Virus record (IMG/VR): IMGVR_UViG_3300009002_000037
Location: 1-25,968 of that record
Origin: a virus
Length of the DNA: 25,968 nucleotides
Strand: one strand, 5' to 3'
The translations under genes and the position numbers were made by a program. This document shows positions 1-19,857 of the stretch, one piece after another; the first letter of the stretch is position 1, and each line of letters begins with the position of its first letter. Below the pieces are notes generated by a model. The model ran no database searches, was not told where the DNA came from, and saw only the letters and a program-made list of their open reading frames with translations.

Positions 1-44
1 CTTGTTCCATAGACAATGATGATTGTGAAGCGTGCGGTAGCTAA
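1..44 (+). CDS. 3' end of an upstream gene (partial)
   Basis: The frame from base 3 is open from the window edge to a TAA at 42-44 and encodes a Cys/Asp-rich tail ending CEACGS. The next ATG follows directly after the stop (TAAATG), as expected for adjacent phage genes. Only 13 codons are visible, so no family can be named and the frame could be open by chance. Confidence 0.35.
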   Translation, partial: CSIDNDDCEACGS

Positions 45-131
45 ATGATTAACGAGAGCTTCCTGCGTGAGTGGAGCATAAACAAAGCCCTACCGATACT
101 TTTAATACCTTATGGGATAGGCGTTAATTGA
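45..131 (+). CDS. tiny ORF, 28 aa, unknown
   Basis: The ATG abuts the TAA of the preceding frame and the ORF ends at TGA. The predicted peptide begins MINESFLREW and continues with a hydrophobic stretch (ALPILLIPYGIGV), so it could be a short membrane peptide. Support rests only on stop-start coupling and co-orientation with the early genes. It is not recognised, and it may be chance. Confidence 0.25.
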   Translation: MINESFLREWSINKALPILLIPYGIGVN

Positions 132-147
132 AGTAGGCAGTCAGCGT

Positions 148-172
148 CAAAAGTGGGTATTCCCCACTCTTG
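148..172 (+). other. stem-loop between tiny ORFs
   Basis: An inverted repeat pairs 148-157 with 163-172 (10 positions, one mismatch) around the 5-nt loop 158-162. The GTGGG/CCCAC core is GC-rich for this genome. No T-run follows on the + strand, so this is more likely an mRNA structure, such as a processing or stabilising hairpin before the next ORF, than an intrinsic terminator. Confidence 0.4.
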
Positions 173-200
173 GCTTTGATTAAAAGCAAAACAAAGTACA

Positions 201-284
201 ATGATTGGAAATATTTTTATTATATTAGCAACAATAACTTCATTTTGGGTTGTTATAGATTCATTTTCAACTAAAGAAAAATAA
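201..284 (+). CDS. tiny membrane peptide, 27 aa
   Basis: ATG at 201 and TAA at 282-284, two bases before the next gene's ATG at 287. Residues 2-20 are almost entirely hydrophobic (MIGNIFIILATITSFWVVI), followed by a short charged tail ending KEK, which suggests a single-pass N-out/C-in or N-in micro-membrane protein. The upstream leader is A-rich (AAAAGCAAAACAAAG), matching the A-rich initiation regions seen elsewhere here. No family was recognised. The position, tight spacing and membrane-like composition support a real gene, but its size limits certainty. Confidence 0.45.
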   Translation: MIGNIFIILATITSFWVVIDSFSTKEK

Positions 285-286
285 AT

Positions 287-616
287 ATGCAGATAGCAGA
301 GGAAGCATTAAAAGTTCTTAGGGAGTCCCAAACAACTTCCGATGAAAACAACTATATGCACGCATACTCTAGTATGACTGTAGAGGTTTCAAAAATGAGA
401 GACGAATTAAACACCAAAGCAGGGATGATTGCTAACGATGTTTATGATTCTAAATTAAAAAGAGTTGAAGACTTAGATAAATGTTTGTTGTTATTCAACG
501 AGTGTTATTTTAAAATGATGTACTACAAGCAGGAAATGGTTGCTAATAAGTCAAAGTTGGTTAGCAAAGAACTTGAGTTTGTTAATTTTGTTACAAAACA
601 TATAGATAGTGAGTAG
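287..616 (+). CDS. hypothetical helical protein, 109 aa
   Basis: An ORF with ATG start, two bases after the tiny membrane peptide and overlapping the following GTG-start gene by 8 bases, so it sits in a tight rightward operon. The sequence is rich in Glu, Lys, Leu and Met, with spaced hydrophobic residues typical of long amphipathic helices or a coiled coil. No signal peptide or membrane segment is seen. I do not recognise the family. Its position beside a MazG-like protein and a DNA nuclease fits an early, non-structural role, but that is context only. Confidence 0.7.
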   Translation: MQIAEEALKVLRESQTTSDENNYMHAYSSMTVEVSKMRDELNTKAGMIANDVYDSKLKRVEDLDKCLLLFNECYFKMMYYKQEMVANKSKLVSKELEFVNFVTKHIDSE

Positions 617-923
617 TATAGAATATAAAGTTTGCACTAAGATTACACAGCGAGCTGAGCTAGGTAAAGAAAAGTACGGAACAACTATGGAGAGGAGTGA
701 TTTAAGTAGCTTAGAGTGGCTTATACACGCTCAAGAGGAAGCTATGGACTTATCCGTATACCTTGAAAAGTTAATAGGACTTGAACAAGAATTGTTATTA
801 GCAAAAAAACTTATAGATGAGGAACAGAAGAAAAAGCCCTGTGAGAACTGCCGCTGTAAAGGCGGGATTCCGAAGTGGACTAGAACATCGAGTTTGGAAG
901 AACTTGATTCAGAGAAAGGTTAA
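609..923 (+). CDS. MazG-like helical protein, putative
   Basis: A 104-aa ORF with GTG start at 609. Residues about 13-57 have the pattern RAELGKEKYG, then a DL..EWL.HAQEEAMDL..YLEKL helix. This recurs in small phage proteins usually classed as MazG-like or all-alpha NTP pyrophosphohydrolase-like; the EE and D in the second helix would be metal-ligand candidates. The assignment comes from the motif alone. The C-terminal 35 residues (with a CENCRCKGG Cys cluster) lie in DNA that also encodes the start of the next gene in another frame, a 107-base overlap. A nucleotide-pool role (clearing non-canonical NTPs) is inferred from the family. Confidence 0.6.
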   Translation: MSSIEYKVCTKITQRAELGKEKYGTTMERSDLSSLEWLIHAQEEAMDLSVYLEKLIGLEQELLLAKKLIDEEQKKKPCENCRCKGGIPKWTRTSSLEELDSEKG

Positions 924-1233
924 AGGTGCTGCCTACGAGCCTATAAAGATTTCATACGTAATCCCCCTGAGTGAACACTCTTATACCCCCGATATAGTAT
1001 TAGCCAATGGTATTATATTGGAGGTTAAGGGTCGTTTAGTCAAAGCAGATAGGGATAAACATTTGTTAATCAAGGAACAATACCCCGATATAGACCTTAG
1101 ATTTGTATTTCAGAACGCAAATAATAAGATTAGAAAAGGTAGTCAAACCACTTACGCTCAATGGTGTGAAAAAAATGACATAAAATGGTGCGAAAAACTA
1201 GTGCCTGATAGTTGGCTTAAAGAGAAAAAGTAG
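817..1233 (+). CDS. T7 endonuclease I-type Holliday junction resolvase
   Basis: A 138-aa protein close to phage T7 gp3 in length and sequence pattern: FRSGLE at 18-23, YTPDI at 56-60, NGIILEVKG at 64-72, then a KHLLIKEQYP segment, a KGS..TYA.WCEK segment and a terminal W near the C-terminus. The four T7 catalytic residues (Glu20, Asp55, Glu65, Lys67) have counterparts at Glu23, Asp59, Glu69 and Lys71, with the D-to-E and E-to-K spacing identical. It is expected to act as a dimer that cleaves four-way and branched DNA before packaging. The ATG at 817 is used; GTG at 841 is an alternative start that would reduce the overlap with the upstream gene. Confidence 0.93.
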   Translation: MRNRRKSPVRTAAVKAGFRSGLEHRVWKNLIQRKVKGAAYEPIKISYVIPLSEHSYTPDIVLANGIILEVKGRLVKADRDKHLLIKEQYPDIDLRFVFQNANNKIRKGSQTTYAQWCEKNDIKWCEKLVPDSWLKEKK

Positions 1234-1241
1234 TATATTTG
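1212..1241 (+). promoter_or_regulatory. Bacteroidota-type promoter
   Basis: TTG at 1212-1214 and TATATTTG (TAnnTTTG) at 1234-1241 are separated by 19 bases, the canonical Bacteroidota -33/-7 spacing. The promoter overlaps the end of the resolvase gene. Transcription would begin near 1245-1250 and soon meet the hairpin-T8 terminator at 1290-1321. Confidence 0.65.
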
Positions 1242-1244
1242 AAT

Positions 1245-1321
1245 ATTCCCTGTTTATCTCTGCATTGTTTGTTTGGTTAGAGACTTGGTAGCCCTTGCAT
1301 TTGCAGGGGTTGCTTTTTTTT
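1245..1321 (+). ncRNA. candidate small RNA (promoter to terminator, ~75 nt)
   Basis: A promoter-like element at 1212-1241 and an intrinsic terminator at 1290-1321 bracket about 75 bases without a convincing ORF. A short transcript is therefore predicted. It could be a stand-alone small RNA or an attenuated leader for the phosphoesterase gene at 1336. Apart from the terminator hairpin I see no recognised RNA family. The start point is inferred from the promoter. Confidence 0.3.
1290..1321 (+). terminator. intrinsic terminator
   Basis: A nine-pair stem (1290-1298 with 1303-1311, including two G-T pairs) has the loop ATTT and is followed by GC and eight Ts (1314-1321). It would end transcripts from the early genes upstream. 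The TTG of the next promoter lies inside the hairpin. Confidence 0.8.
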
Positions 1322-1331
1322 ACTATATTTG
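1300..1331 (+). promoter_or_regulatory. promoter embedded in terminator, leaderless start
   Basis: TTTG at 1300-1303 (in the terminator loop and 3' arm) and TATATTTG at 1324-1331 are 20 bases apart. Four bases after the final G comes the ATG of the phosphoesterase (1336), so the predicted transcript starts at or within a base or two of the start codon. The same TATATTTG-N4-ATG layout occurs before the protease gene. Confidence 0.65.
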
Positions 1332-1335
1332 TCTC

Positions 1336-2067
1336 ATGGAAAAACAATATAGACCTCGATTATCTGAATTTGAATGGAGTTTAGTTCAAAAAGCTAGAGA
1401 GTCAGAATCCCCATCAACAGGAAACGTCTTAGTTATAGGCGATATTCACGAACCTTTTTGTCTTGACGGCTATTTAGAACATTGTAAAGAGCAGATGCGA
1501 AAGTATCAATGCTCTGAAGTGGTGTTTATAGGCGATATAATAGACTCTCACTACTCTAGCTTTCATAGGCAAGACCCTGACGGTTACGGAGCAGGAGAAG
1601 AGCTAGAAAGAGCTATAGACAAGATACAAGCGTGGTATAACGCTTTTCCGATAGCTAAAGTTTGTATAGGAAATCACGATGCAATCGTTAGACGCAAGGC
1701 TTTTGATAGCGGAGTATCTAAAGTTTGGATACGGGATTTCGATGAAGTTTTAGGCGTTGAAGGTTGGGATTTTAAGGAGCATCACAAAATAGGTGGAGTT
1801 CTTTATGTTCACGGAACAGGAACTTCAGGTCGTAACGCTGCAGCAGGAAAATCTTTACAGTTTGGTTGCCCCGTAGTTCAAGGGCACATACACACCGAAG
1901 CCTCAGTTATTTATAACGGAGGACATTGGGGTATGCAAGTAGGGTGTGGAGTTGATAGAGACTCTTATGCTATGGCTTACGCAAAGCACTTCGCTAAGTC
2001 TTATAAGTTGGCTTGTGGAGTTGTATTGAACAACGGAACACTACCAATAGTAATTCCTTTTACTTAG
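1336..2067 (+). CDS. calcineurin-like metallophosphoesterase
   Basis: A 243-aa protein with the full binuclear-metal phosphoesterase signature: GDIH (35-38), GDIID (66-70), GNHD (112-115), the lone His in YVHG (159) and GHIH (183-186). The family hydrolyses phosphomono- or diesters; the substrate cannot be read from sequence. Start: the frame stays open upstream to a TTG at 1273, but that would translate through a terminator. ATG 1336 follows a TATATTTG promoter by four bases and is preferred. It converges with the lysis gene at 2060-2341, overlapping it by 8 bases tail to tail, with no terminator between them. Possible roles include nucleotide or nucleic-acid end processing in early infection (inference). 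Confidence 0.88.
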   Translation: MEKQYRPRLSEFEWSLVQKARESESPSTGNVLVIGDIHEPFCLDGYLEHCKEQMRKYQCSEVVFIGDIIDSHYSSFHRQDPDGYGAGEELERAIDKIQAWYNAFPIAKVCIGNHDAIVRRKAFDSGVSKVWIRDFDEVLGVEGWDFKEHHKIGGVLYVHGTGTSGRNAAAGKSLQFGCPVVQGHIHTEASVIYNGGHWGMQVGCGVDRDSYAMAYAKHFAKSYKLACGVVLNNGTLPIVIPFT

Positions 2068-2341
2068 AATCAGGAGCGTAAACGGTTAAAGTCGCTAAAG
2101 CAAACATAACTAAATGTTGCCAAGTGACTTCCCCTGCGACTTCAGTTTGATGTACAGCAGCTATAGCTATAACACCACCTATAGTTCGCTTACTAGACCA
2201 CTTACCGTTTTTATCTCTAAACATTTTAGGGACAATAAACGACATAATCTTAGCCCCTGTAGTAATTAAAGGATTAATCATAGGTTTAACGTCTTTTAAC
2301 TCCTCTTCTTTTAGCTTTCTATTCTTCCTTCTTAGACCCAT
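2060..2341 (-). CDS. small membrane protein, candidate holin or spanin-like
   Basis: A 93-aa protein with a Lys/Arg-rich N-terminus (residues 1-20), a central amphipathic part, then two hydrophobic segments at about 52-66 (TIGGVIAIAAV) and 75-88 (LVMFALATLTVYA). Basic N-terminus plus C-terminal membrane segments, and its place as the last late gene after an endolysin and a short holin-like gene, suggest a lysis role. It overlaps the previous gene by 23 bases in another frame. I recognise no specific holin family, so the call rests on topology and context. Confidence 0.6.
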   Translation of the reverse strand: MGLRRKNRKLKEEELKDVKPMINPLITTGAKIMSFIVPKMFRDKNGKWSSKRTIGGVIAIAAVHQTEVAGEVTWQHLVMFALATLTVYAPDSK

Positions 2342-2498
2342 AGTTCGGGATTAAAAATTCAAATACCTTATCTATCTTACCGAAGATAGCGTCATCTTTT
2401 ACGTTAGGGGTTAGCCTTACAAATACTTTTGCAGCAGCCATTAACCCAACTAATACAGCTACAATATCTGCTCCGTTCTGTGAAATGTACTCAATCAT
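2319..2498 (-). CDS. short holin-like membrane protein, 59 aa
   Basis: An ORF with ATG at 2498 and TAG at 2319-2321. Residues 8-27 are hydrophobic (GADIVAVLVGLMAAAKVFV), followed by R.TP...KDDAIFGKI and a FEFLIPN tail. This layout (one membrane segment, then an LTP..KDD motif) is familiar from small holin-like proteins next to endolysins in Bacteroidota and marine phages. It lies 6 bases after the endolysin gene. The motif is recalled from general knowledge; no search was possible. Confidence 0.65.
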   Translation of the reverse strand: MIEYISQNGADIVAVLVGLMAAAKVFVRLTPNVKDDAIFGKIDKVFEFLIPNYGSKKEE

Positions 2499-2504
2499 TT
2501 TTTC

Positions 2505-2906
2505 TTAAATTATAGTTATGTAAAATGAATCAGGAAGTACAGACAATAATGAGTCCATAGTATCCCTACTAGAAGTGACGTCTAGTTCTCCGTCTTTGTT
2601 TATATCAGCGTAAGCCTTTCCAACAGCAATACAACCTCTTAATTGAGAATGATAATTAGCTGCGTGTATAAGGATATAATCCCTGCCTTCGACATCTTCA
2701 ATTATAAAATGCTCTCCGTGTTTAGCTGAGAATCTTATATTTACAAGATACTCCCCTCTAGGAATGCAAGACACATTTGTCTTATTTTCTTTCCAAGAAA
2801 GCTCTAGGGTTTTACAAGAGAAACACTCTTTAATTTCATCGTGAATCGTTAGCTTTCCTAACGTCTCTTTCCCTGTATCTACTAGTCTATTTAAAACTAC
2901 TTTCAT
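2505..2906 (-). CDS. DUF5675-type cell wall hydrolase (candidate endolysin)
   Basis: A 133-aa protein matching the DUF5675 pattern: TLGKL near 15-19, C..LE at 31-35, SCIPRGEY at 46-53, ILIHAANY at 78-85 and GCIAVG at 91-96. His81 and Cys92, eleven residues apart, mimic the His...Cys catalytic arrangement of L,D-transpeptidase-like folds, so cleavage or remodelling of peptidoglycan peptide links is a reasonable inference. There is no signal peptide, which fits export through a holin encoded just downstream. The family is small and common in Bacteroidota phages. It begins inside a 28-codon ORF that overlaps it by 20 bases. Confidence 0.75.
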   Translation of the reverse strand: MKVVLNRLVDTGKETLGKLTIHDEIKECFSCKTLELSWKENKTNVSCIPRGEYLVNIRFSAKHGEHFIIEDVEGRDYILIHAANYHSQLRGCIAVGKAYADINKDGELDVTSSRDTMDSLLSVLPDSFYITII

Positions 2907-2973
2907 CTCTATTTGTTAAGGCTTCTCCCATTTCAGCTATTAGCCTAGTTAAACTTCTAAAAAAACGCTTCAT
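2887..2973 (-). CDS. tiny basic ORF, 28 aa
   Basis: The ATG at 2973 overlaps the stop of the previous gene by one base (TAATG). The ORF ends at TAG 2887-2889, 20 bases inside the endolysin gene. The peptide begins MKRFFRSLTRLIAEMGEAL and may form a short amphipathic helix. It fills what would otherwise be a 66-base gap in a gap-free operon. Coupled start and position are the only support. Confidence 0.4.
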   Translation of the reverse strand: MKRFFRSLTRLIAEMGEALTNRDESSFK

Positions 2974-3221
2974 TACTTAGCTCTGTTTACTTTTTTAGCA
3001 ACCTTCTTACTGTAAGAAGCTTTTTGTTTTCCTTTAGCAGTTGCTTTCTTTTTTTTCTTATTTTCTGCAGCTTTTTGAGCAGGCGTAAGAGACTCTCTAA
3101 CACTCTTTGGTAAGTATCTGCCTCTTTTACTTTTAGGTTTCTTCTTATCCTTCTCTGAGATGTAATCCCAATCCTGATTAGTCCATTTCTTGAGACTTTT
3201 TTGAGGTTTCTTAGTAGCCAT
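2973..3221 (-). CDS. Lys-rich small protein, 82 aa
   Basis: A strongly basic, low-complexity protein with KKW..QDWDYIS near the N-terminus, GRYLPK..RESLTPAQ in the middle and a Lys/Ala tail (SKKVAKKVNRAK). The QDW...RYLP...LTPAQ pattern resembles small conserved proteins I know from marine phages, function unknown. Its ATG overlaps the upstream gene's stop by one base (TAATG), so the two are likely coupled. The charge suggests DNA or RNA contact, for example packaging-associated condensation, but this is inference. Late-block position favours virion or assembly use. Confidence 0.75.
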   Translation of the reverse strand: MATKKPQKSLKKWTNQDWDYISEKDKKKPKSKRGRYLPKSVRESLTPAQKAAENKKKKKATAKGKQKASYSKKVAKKVNRAK

Positions 3222-3406
3222 TATTTATATCCTCCTCCTGCTTTTTTATATTCGTTAGCTAATAGTTGGGCTTTTCTTGCAGACCATTGACCTGCTCCAC
3301 CGCCTTTAGTTCCTGCTTTTATCTTATTAAATAAACGCTTTCTCATGGTTGGTTTAGTGTAGTTACCTGAACTATTAACCGTGCTTTTCTTTTTCTTTAC
3401 AGCCAT
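3221..3406 (-). CDS. Lys/Gly-rich small protein, 61 aa
   Basis: A basic 61-aa protein with a clear motif: KPTMRKRLFNKIKAGTKGG, then GAGQWSARKAQLLA.EYK..GGGYK. The KxG..GG..GQWSARK..LL...YK pattern is a recurrent conserved hypothetical in marine phages as I recall; no function is known to me. It begins 4 bases after the preceding gene and its stop overlaps the next ATG by one base. Its grouping with two other basic proteins suggests a shared nucleic acid-related role (inference). Confidence 0.75.
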   Translation of the reverse strand: MAVKKKKSTVNSSGNYTKPTMRKRLFNKIKAGTKGGGAGQWSARKAQLLANEYKKAGGGYK

Positions 3407-3409
3407 AAT

Positions 3410-3691
3410 TTACCACTTTACTTTATCAGCCCAATAAGCAGCAGACATTTTGCCTTTAGCAATATTCTTTCCGTGACGAGCCTTAAATGATTTGCGTTTA
3501 GCTTTCATTTTATCAGACTCTCCTTTCTTTGGCTTTCCCGCAGTACTTGCGCCTTGTTCTCCAAATCGAATAGTCTTTATCTTGTCTCCTTCTTTAGCCA
3601 CAACAACGTGTGATTTCTTAGGATGACCAGGGGTTCGCTTAGGTTTGTTAAACCCTGTAACACCCGCTTTTTTTAGTCTAGAGTCTTTCAT
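3410..3691 (-). CDS. conserved basic protein, 93 aa
   Basis: It has an N-terminal KDSRLKKAGV..FNKPKRTPGHPKKSH segment, a short strand pair (VVVAKEGDKIKTIRFGEQG) and a C-terminal RHGKNIAKGKMSAAYWADKVKW segment. The VVVAKEGDK..TIRFG and K.MSAAYWA.KVKW parts are familiar from many marine phage genomes, where they are hypothetical. His, Lys and aromatic spacing could suggest a small nucleic acid-binding fold. It follows the beta-rich virion protein by one base and leads the Lys-rich cassette. Function unknown. Confidence 0.75.
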   Translation of the reverse strand: MKDSRLKKAGVTGFNKPKRTPGHPKKSHVVVAKEGDKIKTIRFGEQGASTAGKPKKGESDKMKAKRKSFKARHGKNIAKGKMSAAYWADKVKW

Positions 3692-3692
3692 A

Positions 3693-4421
3693 TTAACTTG
3701 CTGTCCAATTAGCAGAACGTTTAGTTCCGATTAAAGTTGCTTGTATATTTATAATCTCGCTACCTGATGCGCTATCGTTTTTTAACATAATCCAAACCAT
3801 TTTGTTAGCCTCAACTTTACCTGCTAAACTAAAACCAAAATTATAGTTAGTATTTGTTGCCGCTATATTAATAACTTGAGAACCTATTAAAGTCATATTT
3901 TGAGCATAAAGATTTGAGCCATCATCTTGGTCTGAATAATAAGCGTGAACACTAATATTACCCGTACTGCTAGAGTTTTTAACAAATCCTCTAACAGTTA
4001 AATTATGTGCATCGTAAGGTAATCTAATAGCATTGTGAGAATAAGCCGCATCTATATTGTTTACGTTTGTAGTAAAAGAACTCCAAGAGTGATACATATA
4101 CCCATAAGTAGTGCTTCCATAATAAAATCTAATTGTACTACTAGCGACTATCCTTCCCGACCTTTGAGCTATTACTTGAACGGGGCTATCGTCAGCAACA
4201 ATAAAGCAAGACTTAACTAATGTGTGTAGAAAGGCTCTTAAATTAGAAAGAGTTACTCCGCCTTTTTTATTTGTCTTAAATTTATCTTCAATAAAATGAA
4301 GTAAATTATCTCTATCAAATTGTTGATTACCTGTTAGTGCGGCAGAATCATTGCTTCTAGCTTGACCTTGAAAAGCCAAACCATAAGACGCTGCTGAGTC
4401 TGTATAATTATCCGTAGGCAT
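3693..4421 (-). CDS. beta-rich virion-associated protein, 242 aa
   Basis: Residues 1-75 are polar, with a helical element (FDRDNLLHFIEDKF, then GGVTLSNLRAFLHTLVKS) that could be a virion anchor. Residues 80-242 are rich in Ser, Thr, Asn, Val and Ile with alternating hydrophobics, as in a beta sandwich or jelly roll. No catalytic motif is seen. Similar two-part proteins occur among head or tail appendage proteins of environmental phages, so a receptor-binding, decoration or short fibre role is plausible. It is late-expressed, 5 bases after a small membrane protein and next to head-tail genes. Family not identified. Confidence 0.65.
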   Translation of the reverse strand: MPTDNYTDSAASYGLAFQGQARSNDSAALTGNQQFDRDNLLHFIEDKFKTNKKGGVTLSNLRAFLHTLVKSCFIVADDSPVQVIAQRSGRIVASSTIRFYYGSTTYGYMYHSWSSFTTNVNNIDAAYSHNAIRLPYDAHNLTVRGFVKNSSSTGNISVHAYYSDQDDGSNLYAQNMTLIGSQVINIAATNTNYNFGFSLAGKVEANKMVWIMLKNDSASGSEIINIQATLIGTKRSANWTAS

Positions 4422-4425
4422 ATTT

Positions 4426-4602
4426 TTATTTCTCTTTAGTTAGTGTTTGATATATTCTAACAGAAGTATATGCTACAGCAACCACTAAAGATAGTATTCT
4501 AAGAGTTTGCTCGACCTCCGCCATAGTTGAAACCATTACAGCCCCACCATTAACAGCAGTAACTTCTATTGAGTCTTTTATTTTAGCTATAGTATCGTTC
4601 AT
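4426..4602 (-). CDS. small single-pass membrane protein, 58 aa
   Basis: ATG at 4602 lies 20 bases inside the connector gene; stop TAA at 4426-4428. Residues 29-34 (AEVEQT) lead into a hydrophobic span at about 35-50 (LRILSLVVAVAYTSVRIY) and a short charged tail. One membrane segment in a late gene could mean an accessory holin or a virion-associated membrane peptide. A coupled start and near-zero spacing to the next gene (ATG 4421) support a real gene. No family recognised. Confidence 0.65.
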   Translation of the reverse strand: MNDTIAKIKDSIEVTAVNGGAVMVSTMAEVEQTLRILSLVVAVAYTSVRIYQTLTKEK

Positions 4603-5182
4603 CTTTATTTCTTATGGAGTCATATCTGTTTATTTTATTCCCATAAGCTAGAATACCTCCAAGCCTAGTAACGTTATCTCCGTCTATGTGTCTATCGTTA
4701 TTTGCGTGGTCGTAATTAGGAAACTCTCCGTCATTGTCAGAATCCTCTATCCACTCAATCATATCTTTAACTAAAATTTCTGCTTTTCTAAAAGTGTCAG
4801 ACTTTAATATTGATAATTCACTAGATTCTACAGGGTCGCTCCAATCATCATCATTAGTAACAACGCCTGATGAAGTTGTGTTAAACTGAATGTCATTTAA
4901 AACTTCGTATTTAACAAAAAAAGCTAAAGCAGGCTTTATATAATCATCTAGTAGTATATTTTCATTAGCACTTAGCGTGTAACTTGAATTACTAGTATTG
5001 CCTTGTCTTAACTTTCCCCAAAAATAATCTCCTAACCTTTGTTTTAAGTGAGTAATCTCAGCTATAAGAATAACGTCTGACTCTATTAGTGATTGGTCTA
5101 AGTTATCGTTAGCCATAGCCTTATTAACAACCTCTTCCGCTGTTATTAGATTATTGTATTGTCTATAATTTACAACAGCCAT
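4583..5182 (-). CDS. head-tail connector (adaptor)-like protein
   Basis: A 199-aa, mostly helical protein: helices with AEEVVNKAMAND and ILIAEITHLKQRLGDYFWGKL, a central YIKPALAFFVKYEVLNDIQF helix, then a loop with SSGVV..DDDWS and a SDTFRKAEILVKDMIEWI helix. This pattern (LG..y...L...Y..P.L....kyevl...n..sSGV) matches the head-completion/adaptor proteins that follow portal genes in Bacteroidota phages as I know them (DUF6712-like). It starts one base after the portal stop (TAA-T-ATG). Expected to sit in the ring joining portal to tail. Name inferred from pattern and position. Confidence 0.65.
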   Translation of the reverse strand: MAVVNYRQYNNLITAEEVVNKAMANDNLDQSLIESDVILIAEITHLKQRLGDYFWGKLRQGNTSNSSYTLSANENILLDDYIKPALAFFVKYEVLNDIQFNTTSSGVVTNDDDWSDPVESSELSILKSDTFRKAEILVKDMIEWIEDSDNDGEFPNYDHANNDRHIDGDNVTRLGGILAYGNKINRYDSIRNKDERYYS

Positions 5183-5183
5183 A

Positions 5184-6479
5184 TTATTCCTTATTAGTTA
5201 ATTTTTCTAAATAAATATCTTCTAAGTCTGGTCGTTCTTCTAATCCTATTAAAGCTCTCAATTCATTTACATCAGCTATTTTAGTAATGTCAATGTCAGC
5301 AGCAAATCCTATAGGAGATTCAAACTGAACCTCTAAAGACGAAGCGTCTAACTTTAACACCTTACCTAAAGCGTCTCGCATAGGCTTAAATACTTGCTCT
5401 ATAGTATCTTGAATCACAGTTCTCATAACTAAATCATAAGATATTCTAATCTCACTACCTGTGTTATTCATTTTACCACTAGAAACAATACCCGAAAGAG
5501 CAGGTTGCCATCTATGAGCAGTTACAATGTTGTTACGGGTTAGTTCTTGATACTCCATAAAGCTTCCGTCTTTGTCGTCTTTAAGTATCTGAACATTAGA
5601 ACCTCCACCTCCTGCTCCGTCTTTTACTAAGAATAAAATCTTACCATTATTTCCTTCTCCTGTAAGTTTGTCTTGAGCTAAAGATATTAATTCTTCAGCC
5701 TCTCCGTCACTCATAGCTCCGTCTATTTCAATAATAGCAGAAGGCATAAATCCATTCTCAAACTTTGTTCTATTGTATTTTTGTATAAGGTAATCTATTT
5801 CTATAGAACCACTTTCTGCGGCAGCTATGTAGTCAGGAATACCGTATCTTTGGAATCCGCTTTCGTAATCCTTAAACATAAGAACAGAACGACCATTTTT
5901 AAAGTTTGGAAACATAGGTAGTTTACGAACCTCTTTATCTTTTAGGTCGTAGTAATTCCAATCAGGATTAATGTAAACTGAATCCATATTCTTGCCTACA
6001 CGAACCATAGTCGCATCAACGTGATACATATTGCATCCACCCTCGTATTCGACAAACTCTATGTAAGAGTTACCAAACGTATAAAAATCATCTACAACTA
6101 ACCTAAATAGGTTTCTTAGAGATTGTCCTGTAGGATTAATTTCCTTTATGTAGCTCTCTAATTTTGCGTTTACGGTAGTTATTTTACTACCCGCTGTATA
6201 AGTAGCTTTCTGAGAAAGGATAGCTCTGTGGGTACTAGATTTTCTTTTTAACTCAGCTAGGTATTGAGGAAATAAATTATCATCTCCAAATCGGTAATAC
6301 TCCTTAGAAGTTATATCGTGTTGTCGCTCTAATATATTAGGCATAGGAGCTAAGTTTACTATATCAAACTTAACCTTACCACTAGCCTTTTTTCTTATAG
6401 TATCTGAAGCGCTAGGAATAAATCTACCTTTAGAATCTCTTTTTCTTTCAGCCAAAACTTGTGTATAATGATTAAACAA
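5184..6479 (-). CDS. portal protein
   Basis: A ring-forming dodecamer at the capsid vertex for DNA entry and exit. The protein has a charged N-terminus, a RFGDDNLFPQYL segment and TYTAGSKITT, a helical core (FRLVVDDFYTFGNSYIEFV), a D-rich linker (KDGAGGGGSNVQ), and a C-terminal part with TAHRWQPALSGI and EIRISYDLVMRTVIQDTIEQVF. HRW.P.L.GI followed by an E....Y..v....I...Q pattern is characteristic of Bacteroidota siphovirus portals. The start is uncertain: the longest frame begins at TTG 6479, inside a TATATTTG promoter; no ATG follows nearby, and TTG 6455 (residue 9) is an alternative. Confidence 0.85.
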   Translation of the reverse strand: MFNHYTQVLAERKRDSKGRFIPSASDTIRKKASGKVKFDIVNLAPMPNILERQHDITSKEYYRFGDDNLFPQYLAELKRKSSTHRAILSQKATYTAGSKITTVNAKLESYIKEINPTGQSLRNLFRLVVDDFYTFGNSYIEFVEYEGGCNMYHVDATMVRVGKNMDSVYINPDWNYYDLKDKEVRKLPMFPNFKNGRSVLMFKDYESGFQRYGIPDYIAAAESGSIEIDYLIQKYNRTKFENGFMPSAIIEIDGAMSDGEAEELISLAQDKLTGEGNNGKILFLVKDGAGGGGSNVQILKDDKDGSFMEYQELTRNNIVTAHRWQPALSGIVSSGKMNNTGSEIRISYDLVMRTVIQDTIEQVFKPMRDALGKVLKLDASSLEVQFESPIGFAADIDITKIADVNELRALIGLEERPDLEDIYLEKLTNKE

Positions 6480-6484
6480 ATATA
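6477..6484 (-). promoter_or_regulatory. TATATTTG promoter element before portal
   Basis: TATATTTG reads leftward from 6484 to 6477, immediately after the hairpin at 6489-6523 and at the very start of the portal frame. No TTG is seen at the expected -33 distance, which lies in the hairpin loop. The octamer is identical to those at 1234, 1324 and 9823. Confidence 0.5.
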
Positions 6485-6488
6485 AGAA

Positions 6489-6523
6489 ATTAAAGGGATA
6501 CTCCCGTAGTTTCGCCCTTTAAT
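6489..6523 (-). terminator. hairpin terminator after tube-like gene
   Basis: A perfect nine-pair inverted repeat ATTAAAGGG/CCCTTTAAT (6489-6497 and 6515-6523) surrounds a 17-nt loop. Reading leftward, it is followed by a T-rich tract (TTCTTATATTTG) that also forms the next promoter. It lies 13 bases after the stop of the 189-aa gene. Confidence 0.6.
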
Positions 6524-6536
6524 CTTATAAATACTA

Positions 6537-7106
6537 TTATGCTTCCGTAGTGTACGGCAACTCTCCTTGAACAGCAGTAAGTTTTACTGTAGCTCCTGCG
6601 CCATCTTCCATAACAGCTCCTGAAGAAGCTTCTACAGACTCTAAGAATAATCCAAATTTAGAATGAAGATAATCTCCTGAACTTTCGTGTGTTCCTAGTA
6701 TATTATCCCAACCAACTAAAAAGTTGTTAGTTATACCGCCTGCTTTAGTAGCCATTTCTACTTGACCCATTAAGCATTTACCTACAAGCTCTTGTAGTGC
6801 GTTAAATTCAACTTTACTTATTTGTGGGATATAACCTTCTATAGAAATAGTAGCTAATGCTAGCCCTTTTTCTTGAGAAAGAGAAACATCCATTTTACCT
6901 GTTCCTTGAGCAAATTTATAAACCCCAACATTTCCTGGGGTAGAAGGTACGTCAAAATCAGTTATAACACCTGTTCCGACTGTTCCATTTGCCGAGTCAG
7001 TAACCGCGTGTCCTGTAGATAATTGCTCCCACAAGTTTACTTTTACGATTCCTCCTACCTTATCTTTACCGCCTTGAAAGGCGATAGTTAAATCTGTTAA
7101 TGCCAT
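6537..7106 (-). CDS. tube-like structural protein, paralog B (189 aa)
   Basis: Related to the next gene upstream (7132-7638). Both begin MALT, have GG(I/V)..(I/V) near residue 18, a VGTG/IGTG(R/V)(V/I)..F strand, then I(T/S)IEGYIP.I...(K/E)..(L/A)L.(S/E)L, a G.V strand, (F/Y)LVGW(D/E), and end in a strand plus a Pro. This beta-alpha-beta layout resembles small tail tube proteins of Bacteroidota phages. Since no other major tail protein gene is visible in the tail module, one or both copies likely form the tail tube; a capsid decoration role is the alternative. The A-rich leader (AAAAAAAAATAAAATGGC) suggests high expression. Confidence 0.65.
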   Translation of the reverse strand: MALTDLTIAFQGGKDKVGGIVKVNLWEQLSTGHAVTDSANGTVGTGVITDFDVPSTPGNVGVYKFAQGTGKMDVSLSQEKGLALATISIEGYIPQISKVEFNALQELVGKCLMGQVEMATKAGGITNNFLVGWDNILGTHESSGDYLHSKFGLFLESVEASSGAVMEDGAGATVKLTAVQGELPYTTEA

Positions 7107-7131
7107 TTTATTTTTTTTTAAGTATTAATTA

Positions 7132-7638
7132 TTAAAATGTAGCAGGTAAGTGAACTTGCTTGCAAGTAAACGTAAGAGTACAGCCATTTTGGTCTGATAG
7201 ACTTGAACCCGTAGCAACTTCTAATCCTGACATAACCATAGGAAATTCAGTAGATGAAGCTGATGTAGCTGTAGATTCTTCCCAACCAACTAAATAAACA
7301 ACACCATCCCAAGTAGTTACTTTACCCACTAAAGGAGCGTCAAGTAAAGATTGTAGTGATTCTAGTTTGTCATTTGTGATTTTAGGAATATACCCTTCTA
7401 TTGTGATTGTATTTACAGATAAACCAACCAATTCGCTAGAAGAAGATATAGTCATGTTTGCGCTTTCTTTTTCAAACTCAATAACTCGACCTGTACCTAT
7501 AGAACCTGCAGCTACATTAGTTCCTGCCGTGTAGGTTATATTTTGACTGCCTTCTGCGTAAGAAGCCACCTCGATGGATTTTACTCCACCTTTTCCAAAG
7601 TGGTCTGCAGCTCCTACTGATATTGCTGTTAATGCCAT
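7132..7638 (-). CDS. tube-like structural protein, paralog A (168 aa)
   Basis: A 168-aa, Ser/Thr-rich beta protein with HFGKGGVKSIEVA near the N-terminus, IGTGRVIEFEK, ITIEGYIPKITNDKLESLQ (about residues 78-97), VVYLVGWEES (about 113-122) and a C-terminal NGCTLTFTCKQ strand followed by LPATF. The ending (G..LTFT.K...PA) is one I associate with major tail proteins of Bacteroidota siphoviruses. It is a tandem paralog of 6537-7106. The gene sits between the capsid gene's terminator and its paralog and has an A-rich, Shine-Dalgarno-free leader. Tail tube subunit is the favoured role; capsid cement is possible. Confidence 0.65.
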   Translation of the reverse strand: MALTAISVGAADHFGKGGVKSIEVASYAEGSQNITYTAGTNVAAGSIGTGRVIEFEKESANMTISSSSELVGLSVNTITIEGYIPKITNDKLESLQSLLDAPLVGKVTTWDGVVYLVGWEESTATSASSTEFPMVMSGLEVATGSSLSDQNGCTLTFTCKQVHLPATF

Positions 7639-7660
7639 TTTATTTTTATTTTAAAGTTAT

Positions 7661-7698
7661 AAAAAAAAGGGAGCAGAGTAAGAACCCCAACTCCCTTT
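7661..7698 (-). terminator. intrinsic terminator after capsid gene
   Basis: Leftward reading gives an eight-pair perfect stem AAAGGGAG/CTCCCTTT (7691-7698 with 7666-7673) with a 17-nt loop and an uninterrupted T8 run at 7661-7668, partly in the stem. It lies 23 bases after the capsid stop codon. No clear promoter follows before the next gene, so partial read-through is likely and would lower expression of downstream genes relative to the capsid. Confidence 0.85.
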
Positions 7699-7720
7699 AG
7701 TATTAATCATTATACTATTA

Positions 7721-8737
7721 TTATCCTACTGAAATAGCGTCAGGTGTATAAGCAACAGCTAATTCACTGTTACCTAAAGCACAACCAATCATATAAGATA
7801 CTCTAAATCGGTAAGACTTTTCGTCTTGAGAGTACCATTGTTCAGCTTGAGTTTCATCAAAGTCAGTACCTACGATAAACGCATTTTGACAAGTCAATAT
7901 TGCAGCGTAGTTTTCAGCAGCAGCACTCATAAAATTGATTTTAGCGTGGTCAGCAGCCATATGCACATCCCAATCTCTACGAACAACAATAGGAATACCT
8001 CTAAAGCTCATTTTACCGCCATCAACTAAAGCTCCGTAACCTGCCGCAGCATATCCGTTTGCTTCTAAGGTAGCTTGATAACTATCAGCGACAGCTCCAT
8101 TTACCATAAATACTCTGTTAGGAGCAGAAAGTAATTCAGGAGACGCAGCGTCATACATATCTTTAAGAACTTCAAGACCTCCGCCTGCAACAACTAATCC
8201 TGCGTTATCAGCAGAACCACTAAGGTTAGTTGAAGTTAATTGAGTACAAGAAGCTTCAGCAGCAGCTTGGAATAATCCATCGTAAAGACCGTAATCTGCG
8301 TCACTAGATGCAACGTCAGAAAAGATTAATTGACGATTAAAGTCATATTTAATACCTGTTCCGATTAAGTCTAGTAAAGCAGTCTTTACAATAGTTCCGT
8401 CAATATTATCAAAATCAGTACCTGACCGCATTAATTGACCTTTAATTTTACCAAATAAAGAGTCAGCTCTAAATTCAATTTCAGCTTCTACTCTACTTGG
8501 AGAAATAGTCACACCGCTAAAAGTACCTGCGTTTTCTCCGCTAAATGCACCGTTGTTAAATGCTTTCGTAACTTTTGTTAGCTTTCCTAAGTGGTCGATA
8601 ACTGTTGTTCCTTTAATGTTAGGAAGAACATCCATATAAGACATCATTTCGTCTCCTAAGAATAAAGGGGATATGATGTATTTATTTACGTCATACTGAT
8701 TAACAGCAGGTAAATTGTTAGTTGATGGAGTTGCCAT
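7721..8737 (-). CDS. major capsid protein (HK97-fold type)
   Basis: A 338-aa protein of typical size for an HK97-fold capsid without a long cleaved arm. Features: an Ala/Gly-rich body, VDGGKMSFRGIPIVVRRDWD (about 238-257), a KINFMS...AILTCQNAFIVGTDFDE segment and a C-terminal SYRFRVSYMIGCALGNSELAVAY strand-helix. GIPIV.R.DWD and the final R..Y..G...N.EL....Y recur in capsid proteins of Bacteroidota phages. It follows the ClpP-type protease gene, the normal pairing, and has a strongly A-rich leader and its own terminator, consistent with being the most abundant product. Capsid identity is inferred from these patterns and from context. Confidence 0.87.
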   Translation of the reverse strand: MATPSTNNLPAVNQYDVNKYIISPLFLGDEMMSYMDVLPNIKGTTVIDHLGKLTKVTKAFNNGAFSGENAGTFSGVTISPSRVEAEIEFRADSLFGKIKGQLMRSGTDFDNIDGTIVKTALLDLIGTGIKYDFNRQLIFSDVASSDADYGLYDGLFQAAAEASCTQLTSTNLSGSADNAGLVVAGGGLEVLKDMYDAASPELLSAPNRVFMVNGAVADSYQATLEANGYAAAGYGALVDGGKMSFRGIPIVVRRDWDVHMAADHAKINFMSAAAENYAAILTCQNAFIVGTDFDETQAEQWYSQDEKSYRFRVSYMIGCALGNSELAVAYTPDAISVG

Positions 8738-8767
8738 TTTTTTTCTTTTTTAATTATTAATTATAGT
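8738..8767 (-). promoter_or_regulatory. A-rich translation initiation region of capsid gene
   Basis: The 30 bases before the capsid ATG contain no Shine-Dalgarno match but end in AAAAAAGAAAAAAAATGGC. Similar A-runs precede the two tube-like genes (AAAATAAAATGGC) and the distal tail gene (ATAAAAAAATGGC). Bacteroidota ribosomes are known to favour A-rich, unstructured leaders over Shine-Dalgarno pairing. Confidence 0.6.
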
Positions 8768-9811
8768 TTACTTAAATAAGTTTTTTCCTAATTCAGCCCA
8801 TTCATCTTTAGTCACTATTTTATCCGTAGAAACCTTTGGCTCATTCTCGGCTAAAGTAACTGAAGGTGTAGCCTCTAGTTTTGAAATTCGTTGAGCCATA
8901 GTCTCAAACTGAGTTTTAAGCTCTTCCTTAGATTCATTTGACTTTTCTTTTTGAACACTTAGTTTCTGAGATAAAGAATCTCTTTCTTCAGTCAATGCGT
9001 CTAATCGAGCCTTTAAGTCATCTACATTAACAGCCTCTTCGGTTGCTACTGCTTCTGTCTGTGCGGCAGGCTCTGTTTGTGCCGTTTCTTCTGCTTTACC
9101 TACAATTAGGTTTTTGATTTCGGTAAACCAATTTTTCATAGTTTCTTCGTTCATTTTACTCTCTGTTTTTATTTCTTCGTTTCCGAAGGTGGTTAATATA
9201 TCCTCTGCTGTTTTGTTTTCGAAGCCACTCATATCGTACTTAGCGACAATCTCCATTTTACCTGACACGCTATCTACAAAGCCCATCTCTTTAGCCTCAT
9301 CAGCACTAAGCCAAGTTTCAGCTTCTAGCATAAAAGAAATCTTTTCTTCATCTAAACCTGTTCGTTTAGAGTACACGTTAAGCATAGTAGACTCTACTTT
9401 CTCTAAAGCGTTTACTTGTCTTCGCATCTGAGACTTATTACCGAATACATTACTCATAGGAGAATGAATCATAAATAAGCTATTAGAAGTCATTTCTATG
9501 GTGTCTGCTGCTAAAGCTATTACCGTAGCCATAGACGCCGCCAAGCCTTCTATTTTTGCCGTTACCTTCCCTGTGTAGTTCTTTAACGCTGTGTAGATTG
9601 CTTGCCCTTCGAAAACATCTCCACCTGTACTATTAATGTGGAGGGTAATATCTTTTCCTTCTAAACCTTTAAGGTCTTGCAAAAAGCTTTTAGCTGTAAT
9701 CCCGTGAACACCTATCTCATCGTAAATGAAGATGTCTGTAGACTTACCTTTAGCTTTTGCCTCTATCGGATTGATAGCATACCAAGACTTATTTTCGTAG
9801 ATATTTTCCAT
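8768..9811 (-). CDS. ClpP-like prohead protease with C-terminal scaffold-like coiled coil
   Basis: A 347-aa protein. Residues 25-190 form a ClpP/S49-like serine peptidase: INSTGGDVFEG (59-69), the nucleophile in GLAASMA (Ser93), the His in FMIHSP (His116) and a later AETWLSADEAKEMGFVD segment carrying the third acidic position. Residues about 215-330 are Glu/Lys/Gln-rich, with TEPAAQTEAVATEE low complexity and a long coiled coil (LKARLDALTEERDSL...), matching a fused scaffolding or delta domain. Expected to assemble inside the prohead and process head proteins. The gene has its own TATATTTG element four bases from the ATG and lies directly upstream of the capsid gene. Confidence 0.9.
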   Translation of the reverse strand: MENIYENKSWYAINPIEAKAKGKSTDIFIYDEIGVHGITAKSFLQDLKGLEGKDITLHINSTGGDVFEGQAIYTALKNYTGKVTAKIEGLAASMATVIALAADTIEMTSNSLFMIHSPMSNVFGNKSQMRRQVNALEKVESTMLNVYSKRTGLDEEKISFMLEAETWLSADEAKEMGFVDSVSGKMEIVAKYDMSGFENKTAEDILTTFGNEEIKTESKMNEETMKNWFTEIKNLIVGKAEETAQTEPAAQTEAVATEEAVNVDDLKARLDALTEERDSLSQKLSVQKEKSNESKEELKTQFETMAQRISKLEATPSVTLAENEPKVSTDKIVTKDEWAELGKNLFK

Positions 9812-9815
9812 AATA

Positions 9816-9823
9816 CAAATATA
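9816..9823 (-). promoter_or_regulatory. TATATTTG promoter element, leaderless protease start
   Basis: TATATTTG reads leftward from 9823 to 9816, followed by TATT and the protease ATG at 9811: the same octamer-N4-ATG spacing as at 1324-1338. No TTG is present at the -33 distance, so strength is uncertain. It would launch the protease-capsid transcript independently of the main late promoter. Confidence 0.55.
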
Positions 9824-9834
9824 GTTAATTAATT

Positions 9835-10116
9835 TTATATAGTGTTGCCATTGATTGACACTTTGTTCTTCATATAATCATACACTACTCTTTGAGTTTG
9901 CCTGATAGATATTCCGTACTTTTCTGATAAGTCTATAAATATATTTTTTATAAGCTCAGAATTGTTTTTAGTTAAGGCTTCATCAAAGTCAGCCCTAATT
10001 AAATAGTTTCTAACTAAGTTGTTATTAAGTAAGCCCTCATTGTATAGAGAGTTCACTACTTCGGAAGAATCTAATTCGCAAAGATTTGTTATTCTTTTTA
10101 TAAGTTCCTGTTTCAT
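9835..10116 (-). CDS. small helical HTH-like protein, 93 aa
   Basis: An all-helical 93-aa protein between the tape measure and the protease. Residues 60-85 (IDLSEKYGISIRQTQRVVYDYM) look like a helix-turn-helix: a helix, a GIS turn, then a recognition-like helix. The N-terminal part (ELIKRITNLCELDSSEVVNSLYNEGLL) is also helical. It could be a late regulator, a tape-measure-associated protein or a capsid-assembly helper; position alone does not decide. Starts 2 bases after the tape measure stop (TAA-AT-ATG). No family recognised. Confidence 0.65.
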   Translation of the reverse strand: MKQELIKRITNLCELDSSEVVNSLYNEGLLNNNLVRNYLIRADFDEALTKNNSELIKNIFIDLSEKYGISIRQTQRVVYDYMKNKVSINGNTI

Positions 10117-10118
10117 AT

Positions 10119-13091: not shown

Positions 13092-13102
13092 TACTATATA
13101 TT

Positions 13103-16100
13103 CTATTCAGTTATTAATAATAATTCTACTTCTGTTGCTTCTCCCGAGAAATTGTAATCTTTTACTTTGCTTATAATATACTTATTATTGTTTATATAAA
13201 CTAATCTTCTAAAGTCTAAATTAAAAATATCAAAAGGAGTTAAGTGAACTTTTGCGGTTATCAACTTATCTGCCTTTTTAAGATTGTTAATTAACTTGCT
13301 ATGATAAAGCTCAGTTAAACTAGAACCATTAATAGCGCTAGAAAAAGAGAGGTTTGGATAGCCCGAAGAGGTGTCTGAAAAAGAAGCGTACTCTCTATAA
13401 ATACTAGCGTTATTAGCGTCTCCTAAAAACCCTCCTTCATAAGCTTGAATGCCAAATTGAATGAACTTTTTTTCAAGTACATACCTAATAAAACGATTGC
13501 TTTCTAACTCTACTAAATCGCCTTCATAAGCTAGCTTATATCCGTGAGAATTATTCGCTTCAGGTTTTTGTTCAACTATATCAGGAGTTAGTGTAGATGA
13601 TGAGTTCCCCCAAACTTTAGGTAACCTTATAGATGAATAAGTTATTTCATTCCAATCTGACATGCTTCTAACAATAAACTTGTCGAAATCCATTTCTAAG
13701 AAAGAGAATATATTCAACCCTATTACTGTAGGTTCTGATAAGTTATCAGGATTTATTTGAGCGTGGAAATCGCCAAGACCTACCGTTGTTCCTCCAACTG
13801 TATAAGAGCTTGCGTCTTCCCCATCTTCATTCATTTTAAGTATTATGTTAGAATTACTTACATTGTTTTGCTTAACGCTTGTTATTGTAGACTTCTCAGT
13901 CCAATCTAATGCTTCTGTAGTTTCAGAATCTAAATCAAAAAAGCTTGAATAAGGTTCTGCTGTAACAACATTACTGTATGGATTAAAAGACCATATTAAA
14001 TTAAACATCTTAGTTACATCACTAATAAACTCTAAGCAAGTAGCGTCAGGTAAAACCTCTCTATACGAAACTCTAGGTGTAGCCTCTGAGTTGTAAACAG
14101 CCATAGACTTCCCTTTTAACGGAGAAATACTCTTACTTAACTTCATTGAAATATCAAACTCATGAACTACATAAGTAACAGAACCTAAAGTTGGGAAACT
14201 TGTATGGTCAGGGGAGGTAGCGTTAGTTTTAGAGCCTGTAGCAGTCATTACAATGTATTCTTGACCTGCTTTTAAGTATTGGACTCTATTTAATTCTAAT
14301 CTTGTATTATTAAGCCTAAGCGTCTCAGTTGCCATACCTTCTGCATCCGTGACATCATTCATTATTGACTTTTCTATTAATATAGACGCATCATCTTCTA
14401 AGTCAAATAACTCTCCTCCAAACTTATTGTTATTCGCTCCATAAATAGAGTCATCAGCATACTGAGCAGGCATCAACATAGTTGTGTAAATAAACTCGCT
14501 AGGTCTATGAAGGTAATGTGAAAAGCTAGTATTTCCTGGACTCCTCCACTTAAAAGATACTTTTGATTGAGTTGAAATCTCGTAGTAACCACTTTTCTTA
14601 ACAGTTATTCTAGACCTTTCAGGATTGTAATCAAGTAGAGGTTGCCCTGTGCCACTTGCGTATCCGTGAACTGAGGAAGCAAAAGGTCTAGAGCCAAAAG
14701 TTGAAGAGGAATTATACAAGTTATCTTGATTATCAGGATGATATAATCCATTTATAGCTGTCACGTTAGAGCTGTAAGAATGAGTAGACCCTACATCGCT
14801 AAGTATATTACTGAACCTTATAGGACACCAATCAACGACATAAGCGTAAACACCACTATTAGACAGTATTGATGATTTTAAATAACACCTAAGAGAGATA
14901 GCTATTGAGGAGCTACCTTCTCCACTATCTAATATAGCGTAAGAACTAAAAGTTCCAAGTTCGGTTGTTGCTTCAAATCTAGAGTTTAAAATATCATCCT
15001 CGTGTATCCTCATCTCAGGAGCTATAGACACAAGTTTAGATGTTAAGTCTGTAAATTCAGTAGAGAAATCTGAACTCCACTCATCTTGATTATTAAAGAA
15101 GTTACTATTAAGAGTATATCCCTCTGATTCAAAGATTTTTACTAGTAAGTTTTTAATTCGAAAAGCAGCTTTTACATTATCAAATCCAACTGAAGCTTCA
15201 TTTTCCACATCTCCATTAGTGTCTTGCATTAAATCCCATAAACCATTATCTACTAAAGGAAATACTATTTCATCATCAAGAGATGTAAACTCTTGAGAGT
15301 CTATAATATCATTACTACTAACTAAGTAAGTAGCTGATTCTATATCCCTTAGATTCTTGTTTGAAATAGGATTTGACCAAGAACTATTTCCTGTTTTTAA
15401 ATTAAAAACTAATTCGTCAAAACCATTAATGCCTAGCGAAGATTCAGTTAAGAATAACTGACCTTTAAGTATATCGAGTCCTTTAGACTTTACTATACAA
15501 GGGAAGCCACTTGAATCAATCAAACTTTTAGTAGCGTTTATTTCGTTTGTAAAAAGCAATGCTTTTTTATTGTTATTAGTTGCGGGAACTCTAATTGTTT
15601 TAGAATAACTACCGCTACTTTTACTAACCTCATTAAAATCTTTGACAGAAAAATTTAAAGAAGTATTAAAATCATCACTTAAATCTAGGCTTGTAAATGT
15701 GAAGGTTGTAGTTGGAGTAGAAACATTACAAGTAATTTTGACTGAGTTTATAATAGTATCTACAATAGTGCTGTTACCCTTTATCTTTAAAGTTAATAAC
15801 TGAACATTATCTCCCAAGCTCCAAACTTTATCTTCACAATCTATAGTTGTTATTCCTGTAGAATTAACGGTAGTAACTCTATCCGCTGTGCTAGAGTAGT
15901 TTTCTATAACCTCTATAGTATTTCCTGTGTTAATTTTTTTAACATCAATTATAACCTTAAAAATATAAGATATGTTTGCATCTTCTATATTTGAAAACAT
16001 AAGAAAGTCAAACACACTAGAATTAATAACGTGTTCCCTTTGAAGTATTATCTCAGGGTTAGCTGCTGCTGCATTGCCTGTTAAGTGGTCGTAACTTCTG

Positions 16101-18478: not shown

Positions 18479-18479
18479 A

Positions 18480-19850: not shown

Positions 19851-19857
19851 TTTTTTA

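Follow-up and report, generated by a model that had tools for sequence, protein, structure and literature searches.

The uncultured viral contig IMGVR_UViG_3300009002_000037 (25,968 bases, 35% G+C), taken over its whole length and called the window here, contains between two plus-strand genes an element that is predicted to specify a new small RNA of about 75 nt, belonging to a single phage lineage. The first-pass annotation had predicted an RNA of this size, and comparison with relatives supports it: the element combines a promoter box, a conserved 5' block and a terminator, has no coding frame, and is independent of the gene downstream. We consider it slightly more probable than otherwise that this is a stand-alone RNA acting in trans, whose terminator would also end the preceding operon and serve as the -33 element and spacer of a second promoter.

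Gene context and anatomy of the element

Plus-strand genes, including those for endonuclease I and a metallophosphoesterase, lie at the left of the window, and minus-strand structural genes, among them a terminase domain and a Clp-type protease, fill most of the remainder. In a relative (G004), the plus-strand side carries a 5'-3' exonuclease and a DnaA-type domain, and the two gene blocks converge right after the phosphoesterase; we infer that the plus-strand side holds the early genes. The closest annotated relatives of the phosphoesterase and the terminase are from phages of Flavobacteriia (Cellulophaga, Flavobacterium, Tenacibaculum, Nonlabens, Chryseobacterium and Croceibacter). Mainly on these two proteins, and on the promoter type described below, the host is inferred to belong to the Bacteroidota, and the virus probably infects flavobacteria-like (Flavobacteriales-like) bacteria. 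The best annotated relatives of endonuclease I come from Pasteurella and Pseudomonas phages (51–54% identity), not from Bacteroidota phages. Two small open reading frames, 287-616 and 609-923, lie upstream of endonuclease I, the second overlapping it; a PHROG search matched 609-923 to PHROGs of unknown function only, and 287-616 to none.

The features of the region are listed below. Row counts refer to alignment A4, which spans the P1 box to the ATG in 24 rows (23 distinct), and identity is the mean over all pairs of 11 representatives.

817..1233, plus strand: endonuclease I gene (T7 endonuclease I family; Pfam PF05367, E 6.6e-50), immediately upstream of the element
1212..1214, plus strand: putative -33 TTG of promoter P1, inside the endonuclease gene, spanning an NNT-TGG codon pair, N19 from the box
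1234..1241, plus strand: -7 box of P1, TATATTTG, of the Bacteroidota primary sigma type; TAHHTTTG in 22 of 24 rows
1246..1320, plus strand: predicted small RNA, about 75 nt, from anatomy and conservation; fold z -3.60
1245..1267, plus strand: conserved 5' block, beginning at the predicted start 1245-1247; identity 0.82 (11 representatives)
1268..1286, plus strand: variable middle; identity 0.52, about neutral; hairpin in some relatives
1287..1314, plus strand: terminator stem-loop of 12 bp, loop ATTT, -18.9 kcal/mol; arms 1287-1298/1303-1314
1314..1321, plus strand: T8 tract; identity 0.98 over 11 representatives
1300..1303, plus strand: putative -33 TTTG of promoter P2, made of the last three terminator loop bases and the first base of the 3' arm
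1324..1331, plus strand: -7 box of P2, TATATTTG; TAHHTTTG in 20 of 24 rows; 4 nt ahead of the ATG in the window
1336..2067, plus strand: calcineurin-like metallophosphoesterase gene (PF00149, E 1.9e-8; PHROG 221, E 2.8e-43), predicted to be leaderless from P2

Promoters of the Bacteroidota primary sigma factor are described as a -33 TTTG and a -7 TAnnTTTG (PMC7366714). In Flavobacterium johnsoniae the -7 element is given as TAHHTTTG, in which G is excluded from the two middle positions and the final G sits at -5, with a gap of 4 or 5 nt before the start, and the -33 element is reported as much less evident (PMC6847099); in F. psychrophilum the box lies at -12 to -5 (PMC9723704). The first-pass annotation had proposed a promoter on each side of a hairpin-T8 terminator, with the terminator loop supplying the TTG of the second. 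Both promoter sites and the terminator lie where it placed them, and the loop does contribute that TTG in every aligned row; what changes is the promoter type, which by sequence is Bacteroidota sigma-ABfr/sigma-A rather than sigma-70 -35/-10, both sites having the -7 box and a -33 TTTG/TTG. Matches to E. coli-type promoters occur at chance level (bases 1-20000 hold 67, shuffled sequence 62.5 with sd 9.7). P1 reads TTG(1212)-N19-TATATTTG(1234-1241), its -7 box abutting the endonuclease I stop codon, and P2 reads TTTG(1300-1303)-N20-TATATTTG(1324-1331). The string TAnTATATTTG is found in the window at these two sites only. The predicted start of P1 is 1245-1247 and that of P2 is 1336, the A of the ATG.

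When the boxes of P1 and P2 are pooled, 42 of 48 are exact TAHHTTTG, and H fills both middle positions in all 48. The two exceptional P1 boxes read TATATTTA and TATCTTTA, and TAHHTTT(G/A) holds in 24/24 rows; the four exceptional P2 boxes read TATATTTA (3) and TAACTTCG (1). The P1 TTG is kept in 10 of the 11 representatives and lost in L014, which is weak evidence because 51% of the S/A/T codons of both genes end in T anyway. In L008, L009 and L010 the endonuclease I stop codon falls two codons earlier than in the window, and TTG-N19-TATATTTG is kept. At P2, the TTG stands exactly 20 nt ahead of the box in all 24 rows (TTTG in 21), a spacing that stays constant although the stem, the loop flanks and the length of the T-run differ between rows. 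The distance from the P2 box to the ATG of the following gene is 4-8 nt in 22 rows and 20 nt in two. Since the box lies 4 nt ahead of the phosphoesterase ATG in the window, a leaderless mRNA is predicted. Bacteroidota mRNAs are described as being without Shine-Dalgarno sequences (PMC6847099), and leaderless mRNAs as a minority, 5.5% in F. psychrophilum (PMC9723704). A further TATATTTG occurs on the minus strand at 9816-9823, 4 nt ahead of the ATG of gene 8768-9811 (Clp-type, prohead protease-like), and is predicted to be a second leaderless promoter in the window.

Six of the 12 terminator pairs are G-C, the most among the 14 terminator-like sites found in bases 1-20000 (8.9, sd 3.3, in shuffles). 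Pairing is kept in 96.3% of cells over the 23 distinct rows, partly through double changes, which affect 10 cells in two pairs (G-C to A-U in seven, C-G to G-C in three). The number of double-changed cells and the covariation score were each reached by 0/500 shuffles, with the counts inflated by related rows, while the count of double-changed pairs (2) was reached by 177/500 and the further pair types by 395/500, neither of which is unusual. The stem is shortened in L045 and L046, and much of it is rebuilt, still pairing, in L016, L017 and L112; the folded terminators of L045, L046, L016 and L017 reach -12.3 to -15.5 kcal/mol.

Upstream of the terminator, the start of the conserved 5' block coincides with the flavobacterial +1 position, 4-5 nt past the box, and TCTCTGCAT within the block is invariant in 24/24 rows. 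The fold of 1246-1320 (z = -3.6) owes its stems mostly to the terminator. In the window, the fold also pairs UCUCU with AGAGA, leaving the 5' block partly base-paired. For the middle stretch we do not claim a conserved hairpin: 5 of 11 distinct sequences support one (p<0.09 against mononucleotide shuffles), and the window does not (p 0.56). The RNA is free of ATG in 23 of 24 rows, and its length varies between rows by non-multiples of three, as expected of a non-coding transcript. A search of Rfam with bases 900-1700 returned nothing near threshold (best E 3.3, 15.5 bits versus 45). By sequence, several marks of an independent small RNA are found together: a promoter of its own, an intrinsic terminator at the 3' end, non-coding character, and conservation beyond neutral, as set out below.

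Distribution in relatives and conservation against a neutral yardstick

A protein search with the phosphoesterase returned 42 viral loci. All 25 with a full-length match of at least 81% identity (L002-L026) carry the element, directly upstream of the gene in 23 and about 1.15 kb upstream in L016 and L017. The other 17 gave no credible match to model R1, with L027 and L028 cut inside the gene; in the more distant loci (L029-L043) the gene sits in different surroundings. The pattern ATTCCCTN{2,4}TATCTCTGCAT returned 29 viral stretches, 27 real and 2 due to chance, and added L047, L054, L057 and L058; L112 came from the endonuclease I relatives, and L246, which is cut by the contig end, from a further pattern. 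The total is 31 uncultured phage contigs besides the window, one of which (L002) is identical to it over the element. In 30 of the 31, the gene immediately before the element is endonuclease I (73-100% identity); L246 is the exception, being cut at that point. A scan for endonuclease I gave 105 relatives, of which 80 were kept. Of the 30 loci with at least 73% identity, the downstream sequence can be read in 29, every one of which has the element; R1 was run on 32 of the 50 more distant loci and did not find it in any.

Searches farther afield gave chance matches and ordinary terminators. In bacterial and archaeal contigs, 27 stretches fit the 5' block pattern and none continues, by reading, into the rest of the element, as expected of chance. 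In four whole genomes, model R2 gave a single match (E 0.099), on the opposite strand of a long open frame; it gave no credible match in 299 genomes of one order under strict filters that lose weak matches; the single match in those genomes (E 7.6e-4) is an ordinary terminator between converging genes. Three weak matches in phage records were likewise rejected: G008 runs antisense to an extended open frame, G010 proved to be no more than a terminator, and the best match in Flavobacterium phage 11b (E 0.034) is antisense to the annotated erf. The viral matches L050 and L053, and L248-L262 (15 of another 42 stretches), are due to chance. Within what was searched, the element is restricted to this phage lineage.

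Four-fold degenerate sites of the flanking genes served as the neutral yardstick, with identities of 0.47 in endonuclease I and 0.51 in the phosphoesterase. Against these values stand 0.895 for the P1 box, 0.82 for the 5' block, 0.52 for the middle, 0.71 for the stem-loop, 0.98 for the T-run and 0.83 for the P2 box; the boxes, the T-run and the 5' block all exceed the yardstick. The blocks of L016 and L017 are only 0.62 identical to that of the window. The first-pass annotation had looked to relatives for conservation and stem covariance, and held that sequence varying outside the stem would refute its reading. Conservation and compensated pairing are both seen in the 24 aligned rows; variation outside the stem is found at 1268-1286 and not in the 5' block, which is better conserved than the stem-loop. 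It is this conservation in relatives that lifts the observation beyond chance.

The element does not follow the downstream gene. In L016 (1100-2242) and L017 (4866-6008), the element and the phosphoesterase are separated by a gene for a C5-cytosine methyltransferase (a Pfam run on L016 gave PF00145, E 1.9e-76); the element still stands behind endonuclease I, and P2 would then serve the methyltransferase. In L112, the bases past the element match the start of the same methyltransferase gene. Because the methyltransferase intervenes while the element stays behind endonuclease I, the element is not a leader of the phosphoesterase. A riboswitch or attenuator leader is disfavoured on the same ground, the downstream gene being the methyltransferase in L016 and L017 and the phosphoesterase in the other 23 of L002-L026, and on the lack of a match to any known leader family in Rfam. 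The element is independent of the downstream gene but always adjoins endonuclease I where this can be read. An attP site or an operator was set aside from sequence only.

Proposed mode of action and competing explanations

In the reading we favour, the host's RNA polymerase, carrying the primary sigma factor of Bacteroidota, would start at P1 (1245-1247) and produce a transcript of about 75 nt that ends with the hairpin and its T8 tract. The RNA's conserved 5' end (AUUCCCU..UAUCUCUGCAU) would work in trans, the simplest mode being pairing with an RNA of the host. Besides ending the small RNA, the terminator would close the operon that finishes with endonuclease I, and the DNA from its loop to the T-tract would also provide P2 with its -33 element and spacer. 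From P2 the next gene would be transcribed into an mRNA with no leader or almost none. A polymerase halting near 1320 would cover the P2 box, and traffic from P1 and the operon would probably dampen P2. On geometry, interference of the kind suggested earlier, where transcription through the terminator may occlude P2, is likely, as a polymerase stopped near 1320 would sit on the P2 box. A stricter version, in which a dedicated trans RNA directs a 5' seed made of two parts, UCC(C)U and UCUCUGCAU, against a conserved host RNA, and the welding of its terminator to a leaderless promoter makes the RNA and the neighbouring gene mutually exclusive, is put forward as a tentative and rather doubtful proposal.

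Complementarity searches bear on the proposed pairing. In a search of eight of the phage contigs, no group of sites recurs in all eight and the two widest recur in five, each contig giving 30-76 matches of at least 10 nt with G-U allowed. As no complementary site is present in all eight, the trans mode is argued from the usual anatomy of small RNAs. Two candidate targets were discarded: a 10-nt match recurring in five of the eight contigs was not taken, and another of 12 nt, also in five contigs, falls on the codons for DRDKH in endonuclease I and is explained by the protein. In a sampled flavobacterial genome (9 tRNA/tmRNA genes, rRNA absent from the sample), the longest tRNA complementarity for two forms of the block was to tRNA-Ala(GGC), at 12 and 10 nt respectively; a third form matches this tRNA over 9 nt and finds its best match, 11 nt, in tRNA-Cys, G-U pairs being used. 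This lead was dropped. The conservation of the 5' block could instead reflect a DNA signal or an initial-transcription signal.

The strongest competitor, which we nevertheless regard as unlikely, holds that the element is a boundary between genes: the terminator closes the operon, P2 starts the next gene, and the P1 transcript is a functionless RNA that only interferes in cis. The geometry that places a terminating polymerase on P2 fits this explanation, as does the arrangement in a flavobacterial genome (G019, 3.98 Mb, 900 kb sampled; L198-L202, L205-L244), where 7 of 56 stringent terminators have TAnnTTTG 3-19 nt past the start of the T-tract, the genome-wide density predicting 0.52. Ten boxes fall in the next 100 nt, making the enrichment three- to fourfold over local background. 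Three of the seven boxes are 4-6 nt ahead of an ATG, and one of the seven has a loop TTG at 17-23 nt. On this one sampled genome, the fusion of terminator and promoter looks like ordinary flavobacterial economy. The special part is the fixed loop TTG, and the novelty lies in the RNA, given that the fusion also occurs in the sampled genome. The fusion places one stretch of DNA under two constraints: the stem may drift with pairing kept, and the loop TTG and its 20-nt spacing are fixed (24 rows).

Phages with about 60% endonuclease I identity (L131-L135) also favour the boundary explanation, in that by reading they use the same TTG for the box of the next gene without the small RNA. In these phages the TTG in the end of the endonuclease gene stands N20 from TATATTTA, a few nucleotides before the next ATG, and the small RNA is absent between endonuclease I and the next gene. 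This layout is a possible ancestral state, and it suggests that P1 is older and that the RNA, the terminator and P2 arose between P1 and the next gene. What the boundary explanation leaves unaccounted for is a transcribed block of about 25 nt, conserved away from the boxes and beside a drifting stretch.

We think it distinctly improbable that the element is an antitermination leader, whose 5' block, as DNA or RNA, is recognised by a phage or host factor that lets the P1 polymerase pass the terminator. The order of promoter, conserved initially transcribed block and nearby terminator is as such a leader would have it, and in 21/24 rows the block contains TATCTCTG, one base off a -7 box. In addition, UCCCUG of the block pairs with CAGGGG of the terminator 3' arm in 99.1% of the cells of alignment A1, with an A-U double change in three rows; against this, the pairing score was reached by 41/500 shuffles, and the 6-bp helix is half of the 12-bp terminator. 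Moreover, the downstream gene is not constant and P2 already serves it, and only one or two genes precede the converging late genes, which leaves no late operon to switch on. Least probable, and very unlikely in our view, is that the RNA derives from the 3'-UTR of the endonuclease I operon, either by cleavage or as the stable end that remains, rather than being transcribed independently. Endonuclease I does adjoin the element upstream in 30 of the 31 other contigs (L246 being cut) and the same hairpin terminates, but the P1 box is TAHHTTT(G/A) in 24/24 rows and, by reading, its spacing to the TTG is kept in L008 despite the moved stop codon.

Comparison with known systems

Full-text literature searches brought up no small RNA described for a Bacteroidota phage among the matches listed, which is a weak negative. 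A conserved RNA with a sharply defined 5' block offers a concrete probe for RNA-based regulation in these phages.

An isolate, Nonlabens phage P12024L, has an analogous place and layout (L095 ~2770-2880, between the holin and gp16/gp17): by eye, TATATTTG is followed by about 60 nt, a hairpin and a T-run, also just upstream of a metallophosphoesterase gene. The stretch gave no model match and by reading has no -7 box past its terminator.

In phage lambda, Q antiterminates at pR', from which a short 6S RNA is made. The lambda pR'-tR' region shares with the element a promoter, a conserved early-transcribed region and a terminator within about 200 nt; unlike it, the element is without a late operon downstream, is followed by a variable gene, and has a separate P2.

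The phage small RNAs DicF, AsxR, CfrI and c4, as presented in a review (PMC12197685), are likewise phage-borne, terminator-ended or intergenic, and presumed to be regulatory. Unlike the window, they come from phages or prophages of other phyla, and the words Bacteroid and Flavobacter are absent from the main text of that review. Closer in promoter type is GibS of Bacteroides thetaiotaomicron, described as intergenic with its own transcription start site (PMC7366714), with which the element has in common a sigma-ABfr-type promoter, an intrinsic terminator and being conserved in sequence. The RNA predicted here differs from GibS in being phage-borne and about 75 nt long, compared with about 145 nt (PMC7366714).
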